From Lentzea albida (lineage in GTDB: Bacteria; Actinomycetota; Actinomycetes; Mycobacteriales; Pseudonocardiaceae): 64,000 nt of DNA. Made by a program: the position numbers and the translations under genes. Under the pieces are notes generated by a model, which did no database searches, was not told the origin of the DNA, and worked only from the letters and a program-made list of their open reading frames with translations. The stretch lies in the NCBI RefSeq assembly GCF_900111005.1, contig NZ_FOFV01000012.1:62001-126000 (forward strand). The letters are read 5' to 3'. The stretch's first letter is position 1. Every line of letters starts with the position of its first letter. Shown one piece after another: positions 13,422 to 63,021 of this stretch.

Positions 13422-13919
13422 CTACCCCCTGATCCAGCGCTGGTCGTTGTAGTTGGAGTTGCACGGCGAGATGAACACGTTCCCGTTGGCGTGTGCCGCC
13501 AGGCAGTTGCCGGGGTATTGGCGGTTCTCCAGCAGGCCCGGGTCCGGCGGGTACGGGGCCCACCGCTGGTCGCGGTAGCCGGAGTTGCAGTCGGACGTGA
13601 AGACCGCGCCGCCGTGGGTGGCCAGACAGCCGTTGCTGAACTTGTTCTGGATCATGCCGAGGTCGGAGTACCGGATCCAGAACTGGTCGTCGTACTGGCC
13701 GCAGAAGCCGCTGCCCGAACTCGGTCCGTAGTGCATGAAGACGGTCGGATGATGGTTGGCCATGCACATGTTCGGCAACCCCTGGTTGCGCCACACGGCA
13801 TAGTGATCGGCGAGGACCACGGCGTCCTGTTGCGCGGCGACCGCGGGTGACGCTCCGAAGAGAAGCGTCAACGCGGCCAGCACTCCGAAGAAGCGCGCGG
13901 CAAAGCGTTGCTTGAGCAT
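13422..13919 (-). CDS. Secreted ricin-B (beta-trefoil) lectin-like protein
   Basis: Small exported protein of 165 residues. A Sec signal peptide (MLKQRF, hydrophobic core, AVAA cleavage region around 25-29) is followed by three repeats of about 40 residues. Each ends in a QxW motif: QFW 79-81, QRW 118-120 and QRW 160-162, the hallmark of beta-trefoil carbohydrate-binding domains. Paired cysteines (CLATH...DC; CLAAH...PC) suggest a disulfide in repeats two and three. There is no catalytic domain, so this is a stand-alone binding module. It has no KstR box and no obvious link to sterols; it may have been inserted between echA19 and the next sterol genes. Function unknown beyond likely glycan binding. 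Confidence 0.85.
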   Translation of the reverse strand: MLKQRFAARFFGVLAALTLLFGASPAVAAQQDAVVLADHYAVWRNQGLPNMCMANHHPTVFMHYGPSSGSGFCGQYDDQFWIRYSDLGMIQNKFSNGCLATHGGAVFTSDCNSGYRDQRWAPYPPDPGLLENRQYPGNCLAAHANGNVFISPCNSNYNDQRWIRG

Positions 13920-14043
13920 GAGCGTGCAGATCCCCTCTGTCCCCAGTTCGCGTCCCGGTTCACGGAACTCGAGGCACGATAACGAGGAGCGGACTGGCCA
14001 CCTGATCATTTGTGCCCGCAGTTGTCCGCGTCAGGAGGCGCTC

Positions 14044-14769
14044 GTGGTACCACCGGTCGTCATCATCGACCTCGACGACTGCCTGATCCCGGACGGCACC
14101 GCCGCGCGTGCCGCCATCGCCGCGGTGCTCGACGAGCTCTCGATCACCGCGGACGAGCAGGCGGTCGACACCGTGCTGGCCGCCGCGCGCCGGGAGTGGC
14201 GCGAGAACCGGCAGATCACTCACCGCGAGGTCGAACGGGTCGCGTCCTGGGAGGCGCTCTGGGCGGACTTCCACGACCTGCCGATGCCACCCGAGGTCGT
14301 GGACGCGCTGGTCGGCAACGACGTGCGCGCGTGGCGGCTCGCCCTGGACGACCTGGGCAGCTCAGCCGACGCCCAGGTCGCCGCGCTCGCGTTCCGCAGG
14401 CTGCGCCGTGCTTTGGTGGTCCCGTTCCCCGGTGTGGAACAGGCGTTGGAGTCCCTCGGCGAACGGCACGAGCTGTGGCTGGCCACCGACGGGTGCCGAT
14501 CGCTGCAACGCGCGAAGATCGCGCTCTCCGGGCTGGCCGACCGGTTCGCGCGCGTGTTCGTCTCGGGCGAGGTCGGTCACCCCAAGGGCACCGCGGGGTT
14601 CACCGACGCCGTCCGCGCCGCGCTGACGGACGGCCGGACGGTGTGCTTCGTCGCAGGCGACAGCGAGACCACCGATCTCCTGCTCGCGAAGACCGGTGGC
14701 TGGCCGTTCGTGCGCATCACCGACGAGGTGAGGTTCGCGGGCGCGGCCGCGTTCTGCCGCTGCCCTTAG
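14044..14769 (+). CDS. HAD-superfamily phosphatase-like hydrolase
   Basis: Haloacid-dehalogenase-fold hydrolase of 241 residues from a GTG start preceded by AGGAGG. Motif I is DLDDCLIPD (nucleophile Asp9, general acid Asp11), motif II LATDG near 150, motif III lysine in GHPKGT near 185 and motif IV FVAGDSETTD near 206. An alpha-helical cap sits between motifs I and II. Likely a small-molecule phosphatase; substrate unknown. It is divergent from the lectin gene across a 124-base spacer in which I see no KstR box. Its stop codon overlaps the convergent Tat-exported KstD-like gene by four bases. Probably not a sterol gene. Confidence 0.85.
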   Translation: MVPPVVIIDLDDCLIPDGTAARAAIAAVLDELSITADEQAVDTVLAAARREWRENRQITHREVERVASWEALWADFHDLPMPPEVVDALVGNDVRAWRLALDDLGSSADAQVAALAFRRLRRALVVPFPGVEQALESLGERHELWLATDGCRSLQRAKIALSGLADRFARVFVSGEVGHPKGTAGFTDAVRAALTDGRTVCFVAGDSETTDLLLAKTGGWPFVRITDEVRFAGAAAFCRCP

Positions 14770-16472
14770 ATGTCGTTGGCCGCGATGTACCCGAACGTCA
14801 TGGCGGGCCCGATGGTCGACCCGGCCCCGGCGTAGCTGCGGCCCATCACGGCCGAGCTCACGTTGCCCGCCGCGTACAGGCCGGGGATGACCGAGCCGTC
14901 CGGCCGCAGCACGCGGGCACGCGCGTCGGTGACCAGGCCGCCCTTCGTGCCGAGGTCGCCGGGCACGATCTTGAAGGCGTAGAACGGCGGTGCCCACAGC
15001 GGTGCGAGGCACGAGTTCGGGAAGATCGCCGGATCGGTGTAGTAGTGGTCGTAGGCGCTGTCGCCGCGGCGGAAGTCGGCGTCGCGGCCGGTCACGGCCT
15101 GGCCGTTGAACCGGCTGACGGTCGACCTGAGGTTCGCCGCCGGCACGCCGATGGCCGCCGCCAGGCCGTCGAGCGACCAGTTCTTCACGACCGCGCCGGA
15201 GGAGTACCAGCCGTCGGGCAGCGGCAGGGTCGGGGCGACGTCGGCGAAGAGGTACCTGTTGCGGTAGTTCTGGTCCACGACGAGCCACGCCGGGATGCAC
15301 GGGTCGGTGGGGTTCTTGTCGTACATGACGTGCACGACGTCGCTGTAGGGCGCGGCCTCGTTGACGAACCGGCGACCGGCGGCGTTGATCATCAGGCCGC
15401 CGGGCAGCGTGCGTTCGGCGAGGCAGAAGTACGGGGAGCCGGGCGTCGGGATGGCGGGGCCCCACCAGGCGTCGTCCATCAGGTCGACGGCGGCGCCTGC
15501 CCTGAGGCCCGCGCGGTGGCCGTCACCGGTGTTCTCCTTCGCGCCGACCGTCCACTGCGTACCGATCGGCTGGCGCTGGTACTGGGCGCGCATGGCGGCG
15601 TTGTGCTCGAAGCCGCCGGAGCCCATGATCACTCCGCGACGGGCGCGCACGACTCCCCGCGAGGTCACCACGCCGCGGACGGCGCCGTTCTCCACGACGA
15701 GGTCCTGCAGGCCGGTGTTCAACCACACCGGGACGTTCGACTGCAGCAGGCCCGCGCGCAGACCACCGGCCAGCGCCTGGCCCATCGTCAGCGGCTTCTC
15801 CCCCGCCAGCGCGGCCGCCGTGCCGCGGGCGAGAGCGGCGGCCGCGGTCGCCGCACCCTTGGCGTTGACCAGGGCCAGCGCGAGCCACTTGTAGTCGGCG
15901 CCGTAGATGACCATGCCGGCGGGCGGGCTCAGGTACGGCGCGTTCAGGTTCGCCAGTTCGGCGCCGAGGACGCGGCCGTCGAGCACCTCCGGTTCGATCG
16001 AGCGGCCCTTGGCGATGCCGCCGGGGAACTCCGGGTAGTAGTCGCTGTAGCCGTCCATGTGCCGGAAGCGCAGCGGGCTGTTCCGCATGACGAACGAGAT
16101 CATCCGCGGTCCCTGCGCCAGGTAGGCCTGCTGGCGGGCCGGCGGGATGTCGCCGACGACCGCGGCGAGGTACTGCGCGGCCTTCGCCGGTGTGTCCGGC
16201 ACCCCGGCGGCCAGGATCACCTCGTTGTTGGGGATCCAGATGCCCGCGCCGGACCTCGCGGCCGAGCCGCCGTACGTCGGCGCCTTCTCCACGACCACGC
16301 AGGTCAGGCCGCGCTTGGCGGCGGTCAGCGCGGCGGTCATGCCCGCCGCGCCCGCACCGACGACCACGACGTCGAACTCCCCGAGGTCAGCGGACGCCGA
16401 GCCGGGTCTGACCAGTCCGGAGGCCAGCGCGAGGCCGGCTCCGGCGAGCACCTGACGGCGGTTCAGGGTCAC
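14766..16472 (-). CDS. Tat-exported 3-ketosteroid delta1-dehydrogenase paralogue
   Basis: 568-residue flavoprotein of the KstD family with an N-terminal twin-arginine signal: NRRQVLA at 4-10, a hydrophobic stretch to about residue 20, and a SASA-D cleavage site near 28. FAD motif VVGAGAAG at 37-44. The KstD catalytic set is intact: YSDYYPE at 142-148, Tyr376 (NEAAPY), Tyr547 and Gly551 (RSYAGAG), plus VPGDLGTKGG. It should therefore introduce the 1,2-double bond into 3-ketosteroids, but outside the membrane. It is the last gene of a KstR-controlled operon after an acyl-CoA synthetase and a PPOX protein; its GTG overlaps the PPOX stop by four bases. Catalysis is well supported; export is inferred from the signal. 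Confidence 0.88.
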   Translation of the reverse strand: MTLNRRQVLAGAGLALASGLVRPGSASADLGEFDVVVVGAGAAGMTAALTAAKRGLTCVVVEKAPTYGGSAARSGAGIWIPNNEVILAAGVPDTPAKAAQYLAAVVGDIPPARQQAYLAQGPRMISFVMRNSPLRFRHMDGYSDYYPEFPGGIAKGRSIEPEVLDGRVLGAELANLNAPYLSPPAGMVIYGADYKWLALALVNAKGAATAAAALARGTAAALAGEKPLTMGQALAGGLRAGLLQSNVPVWLNTGLQDLVVENGAVRGVVTSRGVVRARRGVIMGSGGFEHNAAMRAQYQRQPIGTQWTVGAKENTGDGHRAGLRAGAAVDLMDDAWWGPAIPTPGSPYFCLAERTLPGGLMINAAGRRFVNEAAPYSDVVHVMYDKNPTDPCIPAWLVVDQNYRNRYLFADVAPTLPLPDGWYSSGAVVKNWSLDGLAAAIGVPAANLRSTVSRFNGQAVTGRDADFRRGDSAYDHYYTDPAIFPNSCLAPLWAPPFYAFKIVPGDLGTKGGLVTDARARVLRPDGSVIPGLYAAGNVSSAVMGRSYAGAGSTIGPAMTFGYIAANDI

Positions 16473-16903
16473 GGTGTCACTCCAGACATCGTCTTCCGGT
16501 GGTCCCAGCTGGCGGTCTTCGTCGGGCGGAAGACCACGGCGACGCGCCTCGACATCGCCTTGCGCAACGCGTCACGGGCCTGCGGGTCGTCGCCGACCTC
16601 GCCGAAGTTGCGCGCCACCACGGCGTCCACGACCGGGCCCAGCTCGGTGAACTCGGTGACGCCCTCCATGTGCACGCCGCACAACTGCTCGTAGGACTCC
16701 CCCGCCTCGGCGAGCACGCTGCACCGCGGGTCCCGGCGCAGGTTCACGATCTTCTGCGACTTGCGGTCCGTGCAGAACACGATCTCGCCACCGACCCAGG
16801 CGAACCACATCGGCGCGAGGTGCGGCAGGCCGGTGCGGCCGATGGTGGCCACGACCAACGTCTTCTGCCCGCGCAGGAACTCCTCGACCTCGGCGGCCGA
16901 CAT
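16469..16903 (-). CDS. PPOX-fold flavin/F420-binding protein
   Basis: Split-beta-barrel protein of the pyridoxamine-phosphate-oxidase-like superfamily, 144 residues. Visible: AEVEEFLRGQKTLVVATIGRTGLPHLAPMWFAW at the N-terminus and FCTDRKSQKIVNLRRDPRCSVL (cofactor phosphate binding). Such proteins bind FMN, F420 or heme and often reduce enoates or serve as small reductases. It is sandwiched between an acyl-CoA synthetase gene and the Tat-type KstD gene, the latter overlapping by GTGA. A GTG at 16921 overlapping the synthetase stop is an alternative start. Presence of several LLM (F420-type) oxidoreductases nearby makes F420 a reasonable cofactor guess, but I cannot tell from sequence. Confidence 0.8.
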   Translation of the reverse strand: MSAAEVEEFLRGQKTLVVATIGRTGLPHLAPMWFAWVGGEIVFCTDRKSQKIVNLRRDPRCSVLAEAGESYEQLCGVHMEGVTEFTELGPVVDAVVARNFGEVGDDPQARDALRKAMSRRVAVVFRPTKTASWDHRKTMSGVTP

Positions 16904-16913
16904 CCTGATGGCG

Positions 16914-18428
16914 TCACGCACGGTCGCGCAGCTTTCGCTTGTACAGCTTGCCGTTGGGGTCACGCGGCAGCTCGGTCACGTACTCGACCGTGCGCGGCAA
17001 CTTGAACTTGGCCAGCCTCGTGCGTGCGAACTCCAACAGCTCCTCGGTCAGCGCTTCATCGCCCTCGACGCCGTCCGTCGGCTGCACCACGGCCTTGATC
17101 GCCTCGCCCCAGTCCGGGTGCGGCACGCCGAACACCGCCACGTCCGCGACCTTGGGGTGGCAGATCAGCTCCCCCTCGATCTCCGCCGGGTAGATGTTCA
17201 CCCCGCCTGAGATGATCATGTCGTTCTTGCGGTCGCACAGGAACAGGTAGCCGTCCTCGTCGAGATATCCGATGTCCTGCAACGTGAACAGCTTGCCCAC
17301 GCGCGCGGCCCGCGTCTTCTCGGAGTCCTTGTGGTACTCGAACGTCGAGTCGCCCATCCGCATGTAGACGAGCCCCTGCTCACCCACCGGGAGCTCGGTG
17401 CCGTCCTCACCCAGGATCTTGATCTCGGACGTCGGCCACGGCAGTCCGACGGATCCGGGCTTGCGCAGCCACTCCTGGGCGCTGATCGCCGTGCCGCCGC
17501 CCTCGGTGGCCGCGTAGTACTCGATCACCACGGGACCCCACCAGTCGAGCATGCGGCGCTTGACCTCGAGCGGGCACGGCGCCGCGCCGTGGATCATCGC
17601 GCGGAGCGATCCCATGTCGTACTTGGCTTTGACGTCGTCCGGCAACGCCAGCAGGCGGTGGAACTGGGTCGGCACCATGTGGCTGTGGGTGACCTTGTGA
17701 CGCTCGATCAGCCGCAGCATCTCCTCCGGCGCCCAGTGGTCCATGAGCACCGCGGTGTGGCCGAGCTGGAGGGAGATGGTCACGAAGTTGAGCACGGCCG
17801 TGTGGTAGAGCGGAGATCCGCACAGGTGCACGTGCCCGTCGTGCGGCTTGATCCCGAAGATGCCGAAGAACCAGGCGGCACTCGGCGGCACGACGTCGGG
17901 ATCGGCCCCGGTCAACGGCCTGCGCACGCCCTTGGGGCGCCCGGTCGTGCCGGAGGTGTAGAGCATCGGCGAGCCGGTGGTGCGTCCGTCGGGCCTGCCC
18001 TCCTCGCCCGCGCCGAGCGCGCTCAACGGCTCGAAGCCCGCGATCTCGCCGACCGCGAAGCGGGCACCGGGTGGCAGGCTCGCCGCGGCTTCGGTCGCCG
18101 CCGCCGCGAAGCGTTCGTGCGCAACGAAAGCCTTGGCACCGCTGTCCTGCACGAGGTACGCGACCTCGGCCCCGGTGAGGTGCCAGTTGGCCATCACGAC
18201 GTAAAGGCCGGTCTGGTAGGCGGCGAAGTACACCGCCACCAGTTCGGCGCTGTTGGGCAGCATCAGCACGATGCTGTCGCCGGGTTCGAGCCCCAGGGCC
18301 CGGAACCCGCGTCCATAGCGGTTCGCGTCGGCGGCGAGCCCGGCGTAGGTGATCTCGCGACCGCTCGGATCGACCAGCGCGGTCAGGTCCGGCTGATCGG
18401 CTGCGATGTTCCAGAGTCCTGTGACCAC
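16914..18428 (-). CDS. Acyl-CoA synthetase, FadD17-like
   Basis: ANL-family ligase of 504 residues: P-loop MLYTSGTTGRPKG near 154-166, EYYAATEGGG (A5), ARVGKLFTLQDIGYLDEDG (A7), GGVNIYPAEIE hinge (A8) and PNGKLYKRKLR lysine (A10). Length and presence in a KstR-controlled unit suggest FadD17 (Rv3506), which in M. tuberculosis follows fadE26/fadE27; here it lies 7 kb away. It would activate a steroid or side-chain carboxylate. The GTG start is 10 bases from a KstR box with no clear ribosome site, compatible with leaderless translation. Substrate not predictable. Confidence 0.85.
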   Translation of the reverse strand: MVTGLWNIAADQPDLTALVDPSGREITYAGLAADANRYGRGFRALGLEPGDSIVLMLPNSAELVAVYFAAYQTGLYVVMANWHLTGAEVAYLVQDSGAKAFVAHERFAAAATEAAASLPPGARFAVGEIAGFEPLSALGAGEEGRPDGRTTGSPMLYTSGTTGRPKGVRRPLTGADPDVVPPSAAWFFGIFGIKPHDGHVHLCGSPLYHTAVLNFVTISLQLGHTAVLMDHWAPEEMLRLIERHKVTHSHMVPTQFHRLLALPDDVKAKYDMGSLRAMIHGAAPCPLEVKRRMLDWWGPVVIEYYAATEGGGTAISAQEWLRKPGSVGLPWPTSEIKILGEDGTELPVGEQGLVYMRMGDSTFEYHKDSEKTRAARVGKLFTLQDIGYLDEDGYLFLCDRKNDMIISGGVNIYPAEIEGELICHPKVADVAVFGVPHPDWGEAIKAVVQPTDGVEGDEALTEELLEFARTRLAKFKLPRTVEYVTELPRDPNGKLYKRKLRDRA

Positions 18429-18438
18429 ACCCTCAAAG

Positions 18439-18452
18439 TAGAACGCGTTTCA
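18439..18452. promoter_or_regulatory. KstR operator upstream of the FadD-PPOX-KstD operon
   Basis: TAGAACGCGTTTCA matches TnnAACnnGTTnnA at every fixed position. It sits 10 bases upstream of the acyl-CoA synthetase start and 2 bases from the stop codon of the preceding LLM gene, so it belongs to the downstream operon. Confidence 0.88.
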
Positions 18453-18453
18453 C

Positions 18454-19482
18454 CTACTGACAAGCCTCCGACAAGGCCTTGATCGAGGCAACGTCGCGGC
18501 AGCCGACGAGCAGTGTCGTGACGCCCGCCTTCTCCCACCGGCGGACCTCCTCGCGCACGTGATCGGCATCGCCCACGATGCTGATCTCGGCCACCAGTTC
18601 GTCCGGGACCACCTGCGCGGCCTCGTCCTTGCGCCCGGCCTGGAAGAGCTTCCCGATGTCCTGCACGACCTCGCCGTAGCCCATGCGCGTGAACACCTCG
18701 GCGTGGAAGTTCATCCCCGGAGCGCCCATCCCGCCGATGTACAGCGCGACGAACGGCTTCAACATCGCCCGCACGGCCGCTGGATCGTCCGTCACGACGA
18801 CCTGGCAGGTGGCGGCGACCTCGAAGCCCTCCCTGCTCCGCCCCGACTTCGCAAAACCCTCGTCGAGCCATTCGTCGTACATGCCGGCGAGCCGCGGCGC
18901 GTAGTAGATGGCGAGCCACCCGTCGGCGATCTCCGACGTCAGCGCCACGTTCTTCGGGCCCTCCGCACCGAGCCAAATGGGCAGGTCAGCGCGCAGTGGA
19001 TGGGTGATCGACCTGAGTGGCTTGCCCAGCCCCAAAGCACCAGGCCCCTGGTAGGGCAGCGGGTAGTGCGGGCCGTCGTTGCGCACGGGCGCCTCGCGGG
19101 CCATCACCTGGCGCAGGATCGACACGTACTCCCTGGTCCTGGCCAGGGGCCGGGCGAACGGCCGCCCGTACCAGCCCTCCACGACCTGCGGCCCGGACAC
19201 GCCCAGCCCCAGCACGAACCGGCCGCCGGACAGGTGGTCGAGCGTCAGCGCGTGCATGGCGCAGGCGGCCGGCGTGCGTGCCGACATCTGCACGACCGAC
19301 GTGCCCAGCCGGACCCTCGAAGTCTCGGATCCCCACCACGCCAAGGGGGTGAAGGCATCCGATCCCCACGCCTCGGCGGCGAACACCGCGTCGAAGCCGA
19401 ACTCCTCCGCCGCCGCCACGAGATCGGCGGCGTTCGTGGGCGGCTGAGCACCCCAGTACCCGAGCTGCAGACCGAGCTTCAT
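18454..19482 (-). CDS. LLM-class (probably F420-dependent) oxidoreductase, Rv3520c-like
   Basis: Luciferase-like TIM-barrel protein of 342 residues. Typical features: LGLQLGYWGAQPP start, FAAEAWGSDAFTPLAWW, SARTPAACAMHALTLDHLSGGRFVLGLGVSGPQVVEGWYG and a C-terminal ERWxKAGVTTLLV-like strand. The position divergent from a DUF35 protein gene followed by Ltp4 and Ltp3 is exactly that of Rv3520c, a putative coenzyme-F420 oxidoreductase of the KstR regulon. It probably reduces or oxidises an intermediate of C24-branched side-chain breakdown; the reaction is unknown. Transcribed alone, its promoter shares the KstR box at 19505. Confidence 0.88.
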   Translation of the reverse strand: MKLGLQLGYWGAQPPTNAADLVAAAEEFGFDAVFAAEAWGSDAFTPLAWWGSETSRVRLGTSVVQMSARTPAACAMHALTLDHLSGGRFVLGLGVSGPQVVEGWYGRPFARPLARTREYVSILRQVMAREAPVRNDGPHYPLPYQGPGALGLGKPLRSITHPLRADLPIWLGAEGPKNVALTSEIADGWLAIYYAPRLAGMYDEWLDEGFAKSGRSREGFEVAATCQVVVTDDPAAVRAMLKPFVALYIGGMGAPGMNFHAEVFTRMGYGEVVQDIGKLFQAGRKDEAAQVVPDELVAEISIVGDADHVREEVRRWEKAGVTTLLVGCRDVASIKALSEACQ

Positions 19483-19504: not shown

Positions 19505-19518
19505 GAGAACCTGTTTCA
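19505..19518. promoter_or_regulatory. KstR operator between the LLM gene and the DUF35-ltp4-ltp3 operon
   Basis: GAGAACCTGTTTCA has both AAC and GTT cores and the final A; only the first base (G for T) differs. It lies 22 bases before the LLM start and 9 before the GTG of the DUF35 gene, in a 45-base divergent promoter. Confidence 0.82.
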
Positions 19519-48838: not shown

Positions 48839-49609
48839 TCACTCGAATTTCAGGTCGACGGAGCCGAGTCCGGCGAACTCGGCGTGGAACTCGTCGCCGG
48901 GCCTGGCGTCGATGGCACGGGTGCACGACCCGGGCAGCACGATGTCGCCCGCCAGCAGCCGGACGCCGAAGCCCGCGACCTTCGCCGCGAGCCACGCCAC
49001 GGCGATCGCCGGATCGCCCAGCACGGCGTCACCCCGTCCTTCGGCGACCACCTCGCCGTTGCGCCGCAACGTGGCCGCGACCGCGCCGATGTCCAGTTCG
49101 GACGGACGCACGCGCTCCGACCCGAGCATGAACCCGGCCGACGACGCGTTGTCGGCGATGGTGTCCTGCAGGCCGATCCGCCAGTTCTCGATCCGGCTGT
49201 CGATCAGCTCGATGGCCGGGACGACGAACTCGGTCGCCTCCAGCACGTCCTGCACGGTGCAGCCCTCGCCCGGCAGGTCGCGGGCCAGCAGGAACGCGAT
49301 CTCCACCTCCACCCTCGGGTAGAGGTACGCCGAGGCGTCCGCGGTACCGGCGAGCTGCATGTCGTCGAGCAGGTGGCCGTAGTCCGGTTCGTCGACGCCC
49401 ATCATCTGCTGCATCGCCAGTGACGACAGGCCGACCTTGTGCCCGATGACGTCGCGGTTGCGGTGGCGGACGTTCAGCAGCTGGATCTCGTACGCGTCGA
49501 CGACGTCGATCTCGGGATACAGCTCCACCAGCGGTTTGATGGGCACACGGTCGCGTTCCGCCGTGCGCAGCAGTTCGGCGGCCGCCTCCCTGGACTGGAT
49601 CGTCAGCAC
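48839..49609 (-). CDS. hsaE: 2-hydroxyhexa-2,4-dienoate hydratase HsaE
   Basis: Metal-dependent hydratase of 256 residues: VDAYEIQLLNVRHRNRDVIGHKVGLSSLAMQQMMGVDEPDYGHLLDDM, PRVEVEIAFLLARDLPGEG (metal-binding Glu pair) and ELIDSRIENWRIGLQDTIADNASSAGFMLG. It hydrates the dienoate released by HsaD. GTG start with AGGAGG four bases away; its start overlaps the stop of the flavoprotein gene by 7 bases, making it the second gene of the operon. Confidence 0.93.
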   Translation of the reverse strand: MLTIQSREAAAELLRTAERDRVPIKPLVELYPEIDVVDAYEIQLLNVRHRNRDVIGHKVGLSSLAMQQMMGVDEPDYGHLLDDMQLAGTADASAYLYPRVEVEIAFLLARDLPGEGCTVQDVLEATEFVVPAIELIDSRIENWRIGLQDTIADNASSAGFMLGSERVRPSELDIGAVAATLRRNGEVVAEGRGDAVLGDPAIAVAWLAAKVAGFGVRLLAGDIVLPGSCTRAIDARPGDEFHAEFAGLGSVDLKFE

Positions 49610-51060
49610 CTGGCCTCCTTCGCGACGTGACTTCCCGCCCGGCGACCGGAGAAGACGCAGTCGGCGAGCGCGAGGCCGCTGACGTAGGACTCCGAGCACA
49701 CGCCGACCGCCGACCTGCCGGCCGCGTACAACCCCGGAACCCCCTGCACCTGGCCCGTGTCCTCGTCCACGACGAGCCCGCCGAGCGTGAGCATCGGGCA
49801 CGGGTAGCCGAACCCCGCGCGCACCGACACGTTGATCAACGAATAGGGCGGCGTCCCGAACGGCTCGGGCGTCGCGATACCGGCCTTGCGGGCCACTTCC
49901 TCGATCGTGGGCGCGGTGACGAGGCCACGACCGAGCAGGTGGCGGACCTGCCAGCGCTGGAACGGCGCGGTCTGCGTCTTCACCTGCGCACGGGCCACCT
50001 GGAGGATCTCGTCGTCGACCAGCAGCCACGCCTTGCCGCCCCGCGCGACGATCTCGCTCCCGTTGGCTGCGCCGTACAACCTCGCGTCACCGAAGCGCTG
50101 TCCCGCCGAGTCGACCAGGACACCGCGCTGCAAGGCACTGGGCGGTGTGACGAACCGCCACACCGAGATCCTGTCCATCCGCGCGGTCCTCCCCCCGGCG
50201 GCGACGCCGAGCCGGATCCCGCCGCCGTCGTCACCGGGCGTGCCGAGCGCGAGTCCGCCGCGGTGGGCCGGTGCGTGCTCGTGCACCAGGGCCCTGTCGG
50301 CGATGAAGCCGCCGGCCGCGATGACCACGCCCTGCCCGGCGGTGATCACCAACGGCCGGCTGAACCGTTCGAGCCGTGCGGCCAGCCCGAACAGCCTCCT
50401 GCCCAACGGCGGGTAGTACAGCCACGGTTTGGCGCCCGCCTTGGACAACGCGCTGTGCAGGACGCGCGGCAGACCGGTGAGCGCACGGCACCGCACGCCC
50501 GTCACGCGGCCGTTCTCCTGGACCAGTTCGACGGCGCGGGTCTGCGGCATGATCCGCACGCCCGCGCGCCGGGTCGCCTCGGCCAGCCGGGTGAAGAACT
50601 CCCTGCCCGACGTGCCCTTCGCCCTGGTGCGGTGCCCGCGGGGCGCCGGGTCGGGCCAGGCGTCCTCGCTGCCGGACAGGTAGAGGTAGTAGTCGTCGGT
50701 CGGGTACGAGGTCTTGAACGGCGACAGCCGCGCGTCGAACGGCACACCCTGGTCCTCGAGCCAGGCCAGCATCTTCGCGCTGTCCTCGCAGAAGCGCCGC
50801 AGGGTCTCCGGCGACACGGCGTCGCGGACCTCGTGCCACAGGTAGGAGTACATCGCGTCGACCGAGTCCGGCACACCCGCCTCGACCTGCTGCCGCGTCC
50901 CGCCACCCGCGTAGACGACCCCGCCGGACAACGCGGTCGCGCCCCCGCCACCGAACCGGTCCAGCACCACCACGGACGCACCGGACGCGGCGGCCTCGAC
51001 GGCGGCGCACGCGCCGGCCGCGCCGAAGCCGATGACGACCACGTCCGCGGTGACCTCCAC
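49603..51060 (-). CDS. FAD-dependent oxidoreductase, KstD/fumarate-reductase superfamily, first gene of the hsa operon
   Basis: 485-residue flavoprotein: FAD motif VIGFGAAGACAAVEAA at 9-24, GGGGATALSGGVVYAGGG, RTRAKGTSGREFF and C-terminal GLYAAGRSAVGVCSESYVSGLALADCVFSGRRAG. It belongs to the KstD/fumarate-reductase superfamily but lacks the KstD catalytic motifs (no YSDYYPE, no Tyr-Gly pair), so it is not a delta1-dehydrogenase of the usual type. It may be a 3-ketosteroid delta4(5alpha)-type or related steroid dehydrogenase. It leads the hsaEGFADCB operon, divergent from kstD across a promoter holding KstR boxes, which links it to ring degradation. No equivalent sits here in M. tuberculosis. 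Confidence 0.82.
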   Translation of the reverse strand: MEVTADVVVIGFGAAGACAAVEAAASGASVVVLDRFGGGGATALSGGVVYAGGGTRQQVEAGVPDSVDAMYSYLWHEVRDAVSPETLRRFCEDSAKMLAWLEDQGVPFDARLSPFKTSYPTDDYYLYLSGSEDAWPDPAPRGHRTRAKGTSGREFFTRLAEATRRAGVRIMPQTRAVELVQENGRVTGVRCRALTGLPRVLHSALSKAGAKPWLYYPPLGRRLFGLAARLERFSRPLVITAGQGVVIAAGGFIADRALVHEHAPAHRGGLALGTPGDDGGGIRLGVAAGGRTARMDRISVWRFVTPPSALQRGVLVDSAGQRFGDARLYGAANGSEIVARGGKAWLLVDDEILQVARAQVKTQTAPFQRWQVRHLLGRGLVTAPTIEEVARKAGIATPEPFGTPPYSLINVSVRAGFGYPCPMLTLGGLVVDEDTGQVQGVPGLYAAGRSAVGVCSESYVSGLALADCVFSGRRAGSHVAKEARC

Positions 51061-51156: not shown

Positions 51157-51170
51157 TATAACCTGTTCTA
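51157..51170. promoter_or_regulatory. KstR operator upstream of kstD
   Basis: TATAACCTGTTCTA matches all fixed positions of TnnAACnnGTTnnA. It lies 22 bases before the kstD start in the flavoprotein-kstD divergent promoter. Confidence 0.92.
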
Positions 51171-51192: not shown

Positions 51193-52764
51193 ATGTACGA
51201 CGTGATCGTCGTCGGCAGTGGCGCGGCGGGCATGACAGCCGCGCTCTGCACCGCTCAACACGGCCTGCGGACCTTGATCATCGAGAAGGCCGCGCACTAC
51301 GGCGGGTCCACCGCGAGGTCCGGTGGCGGCATCTGGGTGCCGAACAACGCCGTGGTCGCCGCCAACGGCGTCAGCGACTCACCGGAGCGGGCCGGCACCT
51401 ACCTGGGGCACATCGCGCCCGAGGTCCCCGCCGAGCTGCGCCAGGCGTTCCTGGACGCGGGACCGGCCATGCTGGCGTTCGTCCGCGCGCACACACCGCT
51501 GGAGTTCCGCTGGGTCCGCGACTACTCCGACTACTACCCGGAGGCGCCCGGCGGGCAGCCGCGGGGCCGGTCGGTCGAGCCGTTGCCGTTCAGGACGAAG
51601 CTGCTTGGCGAGGAGGTCGAGGACCTCGAACCGCCGTACGTGCCGACGCCCGCGGGCATCGTGATCACCCAGACCGACTACCGCTGGCTGACGCTGATCG
51701 GACGGCACCCGCGCGGAATCGCCACCGCGGTCAAGGTGTTCGCCCGCCGGTTCCTGCCGGGCCGCCGCCTCACCATGGGCCAAGCGCTGACCGCGGGACT
51801 GCGAGCGGGCCTGAAAGCACTGAACGTCGAGATCAGGCTCAACACGGCGATGACCGACCTGCACCACGAGAACGGCCGCGTCGCCGGAGTGCTCGTCGGC
51901 GAGAAGCTCATCCTGGCGAAGCACGTGGTGCTGGCGTGCGGTGGCTTCGAGCACAACGAGCAGATGCGCAAGCAGCACCAGAACATCGGTACCGAGTGGA
52001 CGGTCGGCGCCAAGGCCAACACGGGAGACGGCATCGAAGCAGGTCAACGCGCCGGCGCGGCCGTGGGGCTGATGGACGACGCCTGGTGGGGCCCGTCCGT
52101 CCCGTTGCCGCGCGGCCCGTTCTTCCTGCTGGCGGAACGGTCGCTGCCCGGCTGCGTGCTGGTCGACAAGACCGGACGCCGGTTCGTCAACGAGTCGGCG
52201 CCCTACATCGACGTGGTCAACGCGATGACCGGCGACACCTGGCTGGTGTTCGACCACTCCTACCGCGGCCGCTACCCGTTCTGCGGCATCCCGCCACGGC
52301 GTCCGCTCCCCCGGCGGTGGAAGGACTCCGTCCTCACCGCTCCCAGCCTCGAAGAACTCGCGCAGCAGGCCGATCTGCCGGAACTCGTGGACACCGTACG
52401 GCGGTTCAACGCGCTCGCGGTCGCCGGGGAGGACCCCGACTTCCACCGCGGCGACAGCGCGTACGACCGCTACTACGGCGATCCCCGCACCAAGCCCAAC
52501 CCCAACCTGGCGCCGCTGACCACCGGACCGTTCTACGCGGTCAGGATCGTGCCGGGCGACCTCGGCACCAAGGGCGGCCTGCGCACCGACGCCTCCGCGC
52601 GGGTGCTGCGCGAGGACGGTTCGGTGATCGAGGGCCTGTACGCGGCGGGCAACACCAGCGCTTCCGTCATGGGCCACACCTACGCGGGCGCGGGCGCCAC
52701 CCTCGGACCGGCGATGACGTTCGGATACCTCGCCGGCCTCGACATCACTGGAGGAGAGCGATGA
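51193..52764 (+). CDS. kstD: 3-ketosteroid delta1-dehydrogenase KstD
   Basis: 523-residue flavoenzyme with FAD motif VVGSGAAG at 6-13, YSDYYPE at 111-117, Tyr338 (NESAPY), Tyr497 and Gly501 (HTYAGAG), and VPGDLGTKGG near 454: all KstD catalytic positions are kept. It introduces the C1-C2 double bond in ring A, which together with KshAB 9-alpha-hydroxylation opens ring B. No signal peptide, unlike the paralogue at 14.8 kb. The ATG follows GGGAGGT; the stop overlaps the kshA ATG (ATGA). First gene of kstD-kshA-79-residue gene-kshB-chsH3. Confidence 0.95.
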   Translation: MYDVIVVGSGAAGMTAALCTAQHGLRTLIIEKAAHYGGSTARSGGGIWVPNNAVVAANGVSDSPERAGTYLGHIAPEVPAELRQAFLDAGPAMLAFVRAHTPLEFRWVRDYSDYYPEAPGGQPRGRSVEPLPFRTKLLGEEVEDLEPPYVPTPAGIVITQTDYRWLTLIGRHPRGIATAVKVFARRFLPGRRLTMGQALTAGLRAGLKALNVEIRLNTAMTDLHHENGRVAGVLVGEKLILAKHVVLACGGFEHNEQMRKQHQNIGTEWTVGAKANTGDGIEAGQRAGAAVGLMDDAWWGPSVPLPRGPFFLLAERSLPGCVLVDKTGRRFVNESAPYIDVVNAMTGDTWLVFDHSYRGRYPFCGIPPRRPLPRRWKDSVLTAPSLEELAQQADLPELVDTVRRFNALAVAGEDPDFHRGDSAYDRYYGDPRTKPNPNLAPLTTGPFYAVRIVPGDLGTKGGLRTDASARVLREDGSVIEGLYAAGNTSASVMGHTYAGAGATLGPAMTFGYLAGLDITGGER

Positions 52765-62316: not shown

Positions 62317-62330
62317 TAGAACGTGTTCTA
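62317..62330. promoter_or_regulatory. KstR operator upstream of fadE34 and kstR
   Basis: TAGAACGTGTTCTA is a palindrome apart from the central pair and matches every fixed position of the KstR consensus. It lies 31 bases before the fadE34 start, 82 before kstR. Confidence 0.94.
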
Positions 62331-62384
62331 TTTCGAGCAACAGATCATGGCCGGGAAACCGATCGAGTATGATGCGGAGGCAGC

Positions 62385-62398
62385 TGCAACACGTTTCA
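62385..62398 (+). promoter_or_regulatory. Second KstR-like box next to the kstR start
   Basis: TGCAACACGTTTCA matches TnnAACnnGTTnnA. It ends 14 bases before the kstR GTG, in the predicted 5' leader, so it may give additional autorepression. Confidence 0.75.
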
Positions 62399-62412
62399 GG
62401 AGGATCATCTCC

Positions 62413-63021
62413 GTGTCACCTTCGAAGTCGCGCACGGACGCGCTCATGGCGGGCGACGAGCTCAGCTCCGCCGCGCAGCGCGAGCGTCGCAAGCGGATCG
62501 TCGACGCGACCATCGCGCTGGCGTCCAAGGGCGGGTTCGACGCGGTCCAGATGCGCGCCGTGGCCGACCGCGCGGACGTCGCGCTGGGCACGTTGTACCG
62601 CTACTTCCCCTCGAAGGTCCACCTGCTCGTGTCTAGCCTCGCCGTGGAGCTGGAGCGCGCCCAGGAGAAGATGGACCGCACCACCGTTCCCGGCGAGTCG
62701 CCGTACGAGCGCGTGCTGTTCGTCCTCGGCCGCATCACCCGCGGCCTGCAGCGCAACCCGCACCTCACCGAGGCGATGACGCGCGCGTTCACCTTCGCCG
62801 ACGCCTCCGCGGGCGCCGAGATCGACAGGGTCTCGCTGCTGATGGAGTCCATGTTCACCAAGGCGATGAGCGACGAACCGGCCACGGACGAGCAGAAGGC
62901 CATCGCCCGCGTGATCAGCGACGTGTGGCTGTCGAACCTGGTCGCCTGGGTGACCCGCCGCGCCACGGCCACGGACGTCGCGAACCGCCTCGAGCTGACG
63001 GTGCGCCTGCTGCTCAAGTGA
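62413..63021 (+). CDS. kstR: TetR-family repressor KstR
   Basis: 202-residue TetR repressor. SAAQRERRKRIVDATIALASKGGFDAVQMRAVADRADVALGTLYRYFPSKVHLL (helix-turn-helix) and AIARVISDVWLSNLVAWVTRRATATDVANRLELTVRLLL are almost word for word M. tuberculosis KstR. It represses the sterol side-chain and ring A/B genes until a 3-oxo-cholestenoyl-CoA-type ligand binds. GTG start with AGGAGG nine bases upstream; longer in-frame starts would cross both KstR boxes. Divergent from fadE34, as Rv3574/Rv3573c. Confidence 0.96.
   Translation: MSPSKSRTDALMAGDELSSAAQRERRKRIVDATIALASKGGFDAVQMRAVADRADVALGTLYRYFPSKVHLLVSSLAVELERAQEKMDRTTVPGESPYERVLFVLGRITRGLQRNPHLTEAMTRAFTFADASAGAEIDRVSLLMESMFTKAMSDEPATDEQKAIARVISDVWLSNLVAWVTRRATATDVANRLELTVRLLLK

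Follow-up and report, generated by a model that had tools for sequence, protein, structure and literature searches.

A predicted twin-arginine-exported 3-ketosteroid delta1-dehydrogenase of Lentzea albida and its putative cholesterol oxidase partner

A stretch of 64,000 nucleotides from Lentzea albida (contig NZ_FOFV01000012.1, positions 62,001 to 126,000), hereafter the window, was found to carry a gene for a 3-ketosteroid delta1-dehydrogenase (KstD) of 568 residues at 14766-16472 on the minus strand, which opens with a signal of the twin-arginine translocation (Tat) type. The protein, here called Tat-KstD, is probably exported and would form, together with a Tat-exported cholesterol oxidase, an extracytoplasmic pair for oxidation of the sterol A-ring; both its export and its activity are predictions.

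The reading frame starts with GTG at 16472 and its stop codon ends at 14766. The protein passed the NCBIfam equivalog model PRK07843 (3-oxosteroid 1-dehydrogenase) with 883.6 bits against a cut-off of 788, over residues 32-568, and its closest PDB entries by sequence were KstDs, 7p18 being the best and 4c3x the next. R. erythropolis KstD1 has Tyr119, Tyr318, Tyr487 and Gly491 as its catalytic residues, as named in parts of PMC6130075 and PMC10018825. These align with Y145, Y376, Y547 and G551 of Tat-KstD, so that all four positions are kept, as the preliminary description of this DNA had claimed. Among the 123 rows of the signal-bearing clade, Y145 and Y376 were kept in all, and Y547 and G551 in 122, the remaining row being gapped there. 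The protein is predicted on these grounds to be a genuine 3-ketosteroid delta1-dehydrogenase. Its nearest named relatives among the matches listed were Lentzea records with 88-95% identity, one of which bears the title Nocardia sp.

A ribosome site, GGAG, ends 7 nucleotides 5' of the GTG, which overlaps the stop codon of the upstream gene (GTGA), and the Lentzea rows have GTG or ATG at the same start position or within 2 codons of it. The sole other usual start codon before the flavin adenine dinucleotide (FAD) motif is a GTG at codon 8, and its use would leave the hydrophobic stretch in place.

Homology to KstDs begins only at residue 32 and is preceded by the twin-arginine signal. The N-terminus reads (M)TLNRRQVLAGAGLALASGLVRPGSASA-DLGEFDVVVVG, where (M)TLNRRQVLAGAGLALASGLVRPGSASA corresponds to residues 1-28 (16389-16472, minus strand) and the arginine pair R5-R6 is encoded by CGC CGT at 16455-16460. 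The pair, the hydrophobic stretch and an A-x-A motif follow one another in the order noted in the preliminary description, and cleavage is predicted after ASA, at residue 28. In order to compare KstDs, a fixed rule (RR-x-hydrophobic-hydrophobic, an uncharged hydrophobic 12-mer, A-x-A) was applied to 219 distinct rows, comprising 123 of the signal-bearing clade, 5 of a sister group of genus code g16 and 91 others. The rows came from 80 named relatives (the best among the matches listed), from 297 Pseudonocardiaceae genomes (the family of the window; rows listed at roughly 69% identity or more, 54 with the signal and 5 of g16), from all 68 rows listed for 394 genomes of the class, and from a sample of the remaining family rows. 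The rule was met by 121 of the 123 clade rows, the other two passing when a 10-mer was allowed, and by none of the 5 g16 rows or the 91 other KstDs. As controls, 47 of 1063 other predicted genes (named loci plus window) and 80 of 6150 shuffled N-termini satisfied it; among the 57 other genes predicted in the window there was no hit.

The arginine pair is present in all 123 clade rows, encoded by 22 different codon pairs. It is preceded by S, T or N in 110 of the 123 and followed mostly by V-L, and the position four after the first arginine is L in 109. For the 101 rows with at most 85% identity to the window member, the median identity to it was 35% over the 20 residues around the pair, compared with 77% over the whole protein. 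In 81 N-terminal extensions (window plus the 80 named relatives) R5 and R6 were the sole invariant columns, M1, L9, A26 and A28 being nearly invariant. The commonest NCBIfam match of these extensions was the Tat signal model TIGR01409 (26 of 81 at an E value of 0.0072, a limit picked to lie near the model's cut-off of 16.7 bits), no other NCBIfam model exceeding 7; the commonest Pfam match was PF10518, also a Tat signal model (57 of 81 at an E value of 0.05), no other Pfam model exceeding 4. A profile search found TatC in the genome of the window (210.4 bits, cut-off 25.1). The invariance of the pair, its varied coding and the low identity around it were read as selection on a signal; judged from the sequences, the predicted Tat-type signal of this clade is not a product of chance.

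A tree was calculated from the mature part of 80 thinned rows by a quick search, with support from the Shimodaira-Hasegawa-like approximate likelihood ratio test (SH-aLRT); row L077 was labelled by hand. The preliminary description had proposed a phylogeny to see whether Tat-bearing KstDs group together, and they do so: all 32 Tat rows fell on one side of a single branch (SH-aLRT 99), with two signal-less g16 rows as their sister (SH-aLRT 99), and the signal requires one change on the tree. Among the matches listed, named members of the clade span Pseudonocardiaceae, Streptomycetaceae, Streptosporangiaceae and Micromonosporaceae, and a family coded f20 adds three genomes. At 18 positions of the mature part, residues that are seldom seen in other KstDs are nearly fixed in the clade; three of these positions adjoin the catalytic tyrosines or glycine.

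Evidence on the second half of the proposed pair comes from the distribution of cholesterol oxidases in the 297 Pseudonocardiaceae genomes. A class I homologue (E value 1e-150) was present in all 54 genomes with Tat-KstD, compared with 89 of the 243 genomes without it, and a close class I orthologue (at least 77% identity) in 53 of 54 compared with 10 of 243 (Fisher p 3e-47, not corrected for kinship). In the genome of the window this oxidase (L266; 732.3 bits to cholesterol oxidase 1coy) bears SRRSFMAGTGSILGAVALGG and a KstR-type box with one mismatch. When its 5' region was examined with 12 slices from other genomes, 10 of the 13 combined a Tat signal with a KstR-type box that lies 84-86 nucleotides before the arginine pair, seven of the boxes being exact and three having one mismatch; the 5' regions of L268, L271 and L272 did not resolve. 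A further set of 36 genomes was compared, 15 of them being Tat-KstD genomes of the window's family and 13 belonging to genus code g71, which is read as Streptomyces since some of its loci match named Streptomyces loci (for example L180 and L081, L179 and L104). Each of the 13 g71 genomes has a class I homologue of at least 51% identity; in one genome of the study (G596) the homologue is split over two frames (contig C1, 9287117-9288729). The three f20 genomes gave class I matches of just 34-37% identity, but class II oxidases are present in them.

The five g16 sisters (L134-L138) have kept KstR boxes and lack the signal, and their five genomes hold neither the class I homologue at an E value of 1e-150 nor the close orthologue. 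It is as if the signal and the class I oxidase come and go together.

Tagged oxidases were also found directly beside Tat-KstD. Locus L260, on the Streptomyces plasmid NZ_CP109366.1, has a homologue annotated as kstD and, in head-to-head orientation to it, a gene for a GMC oxidoreductase. Of the solved structures, cholesterol oxidase 1coy is closest to this oxidoreductase (756.7 bits); the oxidoreductase has SRRRFIAGTGSILGAVSLAGRAVAA near its start and did not pass the NCBIfam cholesterol oxidase model NF058674 (98.5 against 850). The same pair occurs in Streptomyces aureus NRRL B-1941 (L081) and S. populi (L089), both oxidases having an SRRRF signal. In Paractinoplanes durhamensis (L115), where Tat-KstD has a KstR-type box, an oxidase homologue of 65% identity with MTRRRTVLRAAVLG lies on the same strand at the end of Tat-KstD, either overlapping that gene or following it by one base, according to which start codon is taken. 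In genome G538 (L254) the next gene, 21 nucleotides on, encodes a cholesterol oxidase of class II (PF09129, 444.2 bits) that carries SRRAFVAGAVAAT. In G193 (L267) the cluster also contains a class I homologue of 53% identity, bearing GRRAFLAGAGAAAL, at a distance of about 3.6 kb downstream. Many loci hold just about 1.5 kb of flank, and partners there could be missed.

The genomic setting of Tat-KstD differs between genera. All 15 Tat-KstD genomes of the window's family hold KstR over its cut-off, KshA and a second KstD. Among the 13 g71 genomes with Tat-KstD, none has KstR over the cut-off and nine gave no match to KshA; of the other four, G439 has a strong one (306.5 bits), and G314, G556 and G564 gave 93.1, 63.5 and 21.9 bits, the last under the cut-off. 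Tat-KstD is the only KstD at an E value of 1e-60 in 11 of the 13, G439 and G564 having one more each, at 48-49% identity. Independent support is given in part of PMC4810484, where steroid catabolism pathways were lacking in 55 of 57 Streptomyces genomes. In Streptomyces-type genomes Tat-KstD is mostly uncoupled from ring catabolism. Opening of a 1,4-diene along the classical route requires KshA, so where KshA is missing the product of Tat-KstD would be an end product.

Based on these observations, the following mechanism is proposed. KstD would fold with FAD in the cytoplasm and then leave by Tat, the signal probably being removed after residue 28. Outside the membrane it would introduce the 1,2 double bond into 3-keto-4-ene steroids, which would most likely be made on the spot by the Tat-exported cholesterol oxidase, giving the route sterol to 4-en-3-one to 1,4-dien-3-one. 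The electrons would pass to a membrane acceptor such as menaquinone. In Lentzea and its relatives the pair would belong to the KstR regulon and make sterols ready for the normal catabolic pathway; its work in Streptomyces would mostly take place without that pathway. The preliminary description had allowed for action either before uptake or on exported steroids. Its placement of the enzyme outside the membrane is retained as a prediction, and of the two roles the evidence from the Tat-tagged oxidase partner favours action on sterols that are already outside.

Several other explanations were considered. Tat-KstD could be exported and yet stay anchored by an uncleaved signal, facing outward and giving its electrons directly to menaquinone. 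An anchored flavoenzyme would keep its access to the quinone, and the available part of PMC10672877 describes KstD as passing electrons to the respiratory chain and as membrane-associated in N. simplex; however, A-x-A stands behind the hydrophobic stretch throughout the Tat clade, which points to cleavage, and we regard the anchored form as unlikely. Alternatively, the exported enzyme could have a natural task other than A-ring desaturation of sterols, acting on another ketone or in reverse as a 1(2)-hydrogenase. The clade-typical mature positions, with three beside the catalytic tyrosines or glycine, and the separation from sterol catabolism in most Streptomyces-type genomes would fit such a task. 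The retained catalytic residues, the passed PRK07843 cut-off, the cholesterol oxidase partner and the KstR-type boxes argue against it and make it quite improbable.

Two further explanations concern the extension itself. The start might have been misread, or the extension might be a tail that goes unused, the enzyme being cytoplasmic like other KstDs, as the reading of ordinary KstDs from a start near the FAD motif and the scores of the window member under the curated Tat cut-offs would allow. This was judged very improbable, given that the start and ribosome site are conserved in Lentzea, that no alternative start removes the hydrophobic stretch, and that the arginine pair persists in every clade row despite the divergence around it. 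The extension could also be a Sec signal, arginines being generally known to be common in Sec n-regions. There is scarcely a chance of this, since the invariant pair has S, T or N in front of it and is mostly followed by V-L, the extensions match Tat models more often than any others, a folded FAD enzyme is known to need Tat, and Tat motifs occur in cholesterol oxidases that act in this pathway (part of PMC7588053).

Some results weigh against an exported oxidase and KstD pair. The N-terminus of the window member stays under the curated cut-offs, with 13.1 bits for TIGR01409 (16.7) and 13.3-15.8 bits for PF10518 (22.7), and 55 of the 81 extensions miss the TIGR01409 threshold. The mature part of the Tat-clade KstDs shows no paired extra cysteines, and the operon neighbours of Tat-KstD resemble cytoplasmic enzymes. 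Adjacency to an oxidase is rare (3 of 80 named loci, plus L254 and L260, with L267 about 3.6 kb off), and in the genome of the window the oxidase is on a different contig from Tat-KstD. A class II oxidase homologue (44%) was likewise found near an ordinary KstD without the tag (L195), so oxidase neighbours are not exclusive to the Tat form; kstD3, hsd4B and choG are also treated jointly in part of PMC5348764. The co-occurrence figures are uncorrected for kinship, and 89 genomes without Tat-KstD still hold a class I homologue.

Compared with known enzymes, Tat-KstD resembles PRK07843-type KstDs such as R. erythropolis KstD1 (EC 1.3.99.4) over its whole mature length, including the FAD motif and the four catalytic residues, and differs from them in 31 extra N-terminal residues with the twin-arginine signal and in the 18 clade-typical positions. 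Actinobacterial KstDs are described in the part of PMC10672877 available as mainly intracellular, either membrane-associated or cytosolic. AcmB of Sterolibacterium denitrificans is similar in being a KstD whose membrane side is debated, its authors suggesting in part of PMC8220720 that KstDs occur on both sides. It differs in that its assigned location is the cytoplasmic side, although the periplasmic fraction showed some activity, and the word "signal" is absent from the main text of that paper. The cholesterol oxidases ChoRI and ChoRII of R. erythropolis are likewise flavoenzymes of a first sterol step, with SRRGF-type Tat signals (part of PMC7588053), but such oxidases catalyse another reaction and have another fold. 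The accessible parts of open-licence PMC papers yielded no description of a Tat-tagged KstD. The twin-arginine mentions in the available parts of PMC10653915, PMC10637631, PMC12294881 and PMC6498646 refer to other genes or to entries not identified as KstD, and PMC8950399, in the part available, tested KstDs from a Streptomyces and an Actinomadura, which may or may not belong to the Tat clade. Tat-tagged cholesterol oxidases being already known, a Tat-tagged KstD would be a variant of a well-known enzyme, with its export predicted.

If Tat-KstD is exported, the placement of the first A-ring steps of sterol attack would change, and the question raised for AcmB, whether KstDs work on both sides of the membrane (part of PMC8220720), would be affected. 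It would also have to be asked how reduced FAD is reoxidised outside the membrane. KstD is a workhorse of steroid-drug manufacture, and an exported form would offer a natural secreted delta1-dehydrogenase; secretory overproduction of the A. simplex KstD in S. lividans is reported, to go by its title, in a study cited in PMC6130075. A broader proposal is put forward tentatively, with confidence somewhat short of even. The exported two-enzyme unit of cholesterol oxidase and KstD could be common to several actinobacterial families and oxidise sterols outside the cell, passing electrons to an outward-facing membrane acceptor, with either a class I or a class II oxidase serving interchangeably as partner. 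In Streptomyces it might have been cut loose from steroid catabolism for another purpose, for example altering the sterols of neighbouring eukaryotes or detoxifying steroids.

Tat-KstD lies in an operon on the minus strand. The operon begins with an LLM-class F420-dependent oxidoreductase of the Rv3520c type (18454-19482; TIGR03559, 503.9 bits, cut-off 335), followed by a FadD-type acyl-CoA synthetase (16914-18428; FadD4 model, 488.9 bits, below the cut-off of 850) and by a PPOX-class F420-dependent oxidoreductase-like gene (16469-16963; TIGR03618, 74.4 bits, just under the cut-off of 79.05), which overlaps the KstD start by 4 nucleotides. The window was scanned with TNNAACNNGTTNNA, which we take to be the KstR consensus, and seven exact occurrences were found compared with 0.10 expected. 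One of them, TAGAACGCGTTTCA (18439-18452), lies inside the operon in the 25-nucleotide gap before fadD, beginning 24 nucleotides before the fadD start, and a near match with one mismatch, GAGAACCTGTTTCA (19505-19518), lies in the divergent promoter region. The operator TAGAACGCGTTTCA is identical in 15 of 16 Lentzea-group loci including the window; in the 16th (L049) the fadD start was called elsewhere. The window also contains the KstR repressor gene itself (62323-63021, plus strand; 320.2 bits, cut-off 280), with motifs at 62317 and 62385. The model match begins at residue 48, so that the true kstR start is probably further in.

The KstR box that the preliminary description ascribed to the operon is present, with the refinement that it precedes fadD inside the operon and does not adjoin the KstD gene. 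The ordinary KstD it had placed at 51.2 kb was located at 51193-52764 on the plus strand, scoring 779.9 bits with PRK07843, just under the cut-off of 788; it has a KstR box at 51157-51170 and begins directly at its FAD motif, with no N-terminal extension. The claim that Tat-KstD belongs to sterol metabolism holds for this KstR-linked sterol cluster and needs qualification for Streptomyces-type genomes, where it is mostly uncoupled from ring catabolism.

A directly upstream box was considered as a mark of the whole Tat clade and rejected. An exact KstR-type box within 350 nucleotides upstream of the arginine pair was found in only 25 of 112 Tat rows (not thinned), compared with 50 of 54 ordinary KstDs and 5 of 5 g16 rows, and in Lentzea the box lies further upstream. 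All 25 boxed rows belong to Amycolatopsis, Kibdelosporangium or Paractinoplanes, or to coded genomes of the window's family, and no named Streptomyces, Nonomuraea or Kutzneria Tat row has such a box within that distance. Operon conservation was also set aside as a functional clue, the order LLM, fadD, PPOX, KstD being a Lentzea trait. An LLM gene precedes Tat-KstD in some Amycolatopsis loci and in Paractinoplanes, where a more distant PPOX gene also occurs on the opposite strand. The neighbour families scanned for Streptomyces Tat-KstD look unrelated.

Disulfides were considered as a mark of extracellular life, and no claim is made from them. Cysteines at alignment columns 58 and 213 do not co-occur consistently in the Tat clade, where 60 rows have both, 22 and 35 rows have one, and 6 have neither; they are missing from the g16 and ordinary KstD rows. 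C350 and C488 of Tat-KstD are common to the signal-less g16 sisters.

A phospholipase C (PF04185 and PF05506) with the signal RRRFLSLAGGTAAL adjoins Tat-KstD at L255:8519-10591 and L256:5178-7349, this Tat-tagged enzyme following Tat-KstD in two of the three f20 genomes, G407 and G619. It was rejected as a general partner, having been found in two genomes only among the loci searched (L255 = L192, L256 = L193).

Near Tat-KstD in the window, a protein of 195 residues (13422-14009, minus strand) resembles by eye a small secreted lectin of the ricin type. Divergent from the ordinary KstD lies a gene for an FAD-binding PRK07121-type protein (49603-51060, minus strand; 608.8 bits, cut-off 466), which is possibly, as a guess, a relative of ketosteroid delta4-dehydrogenase.

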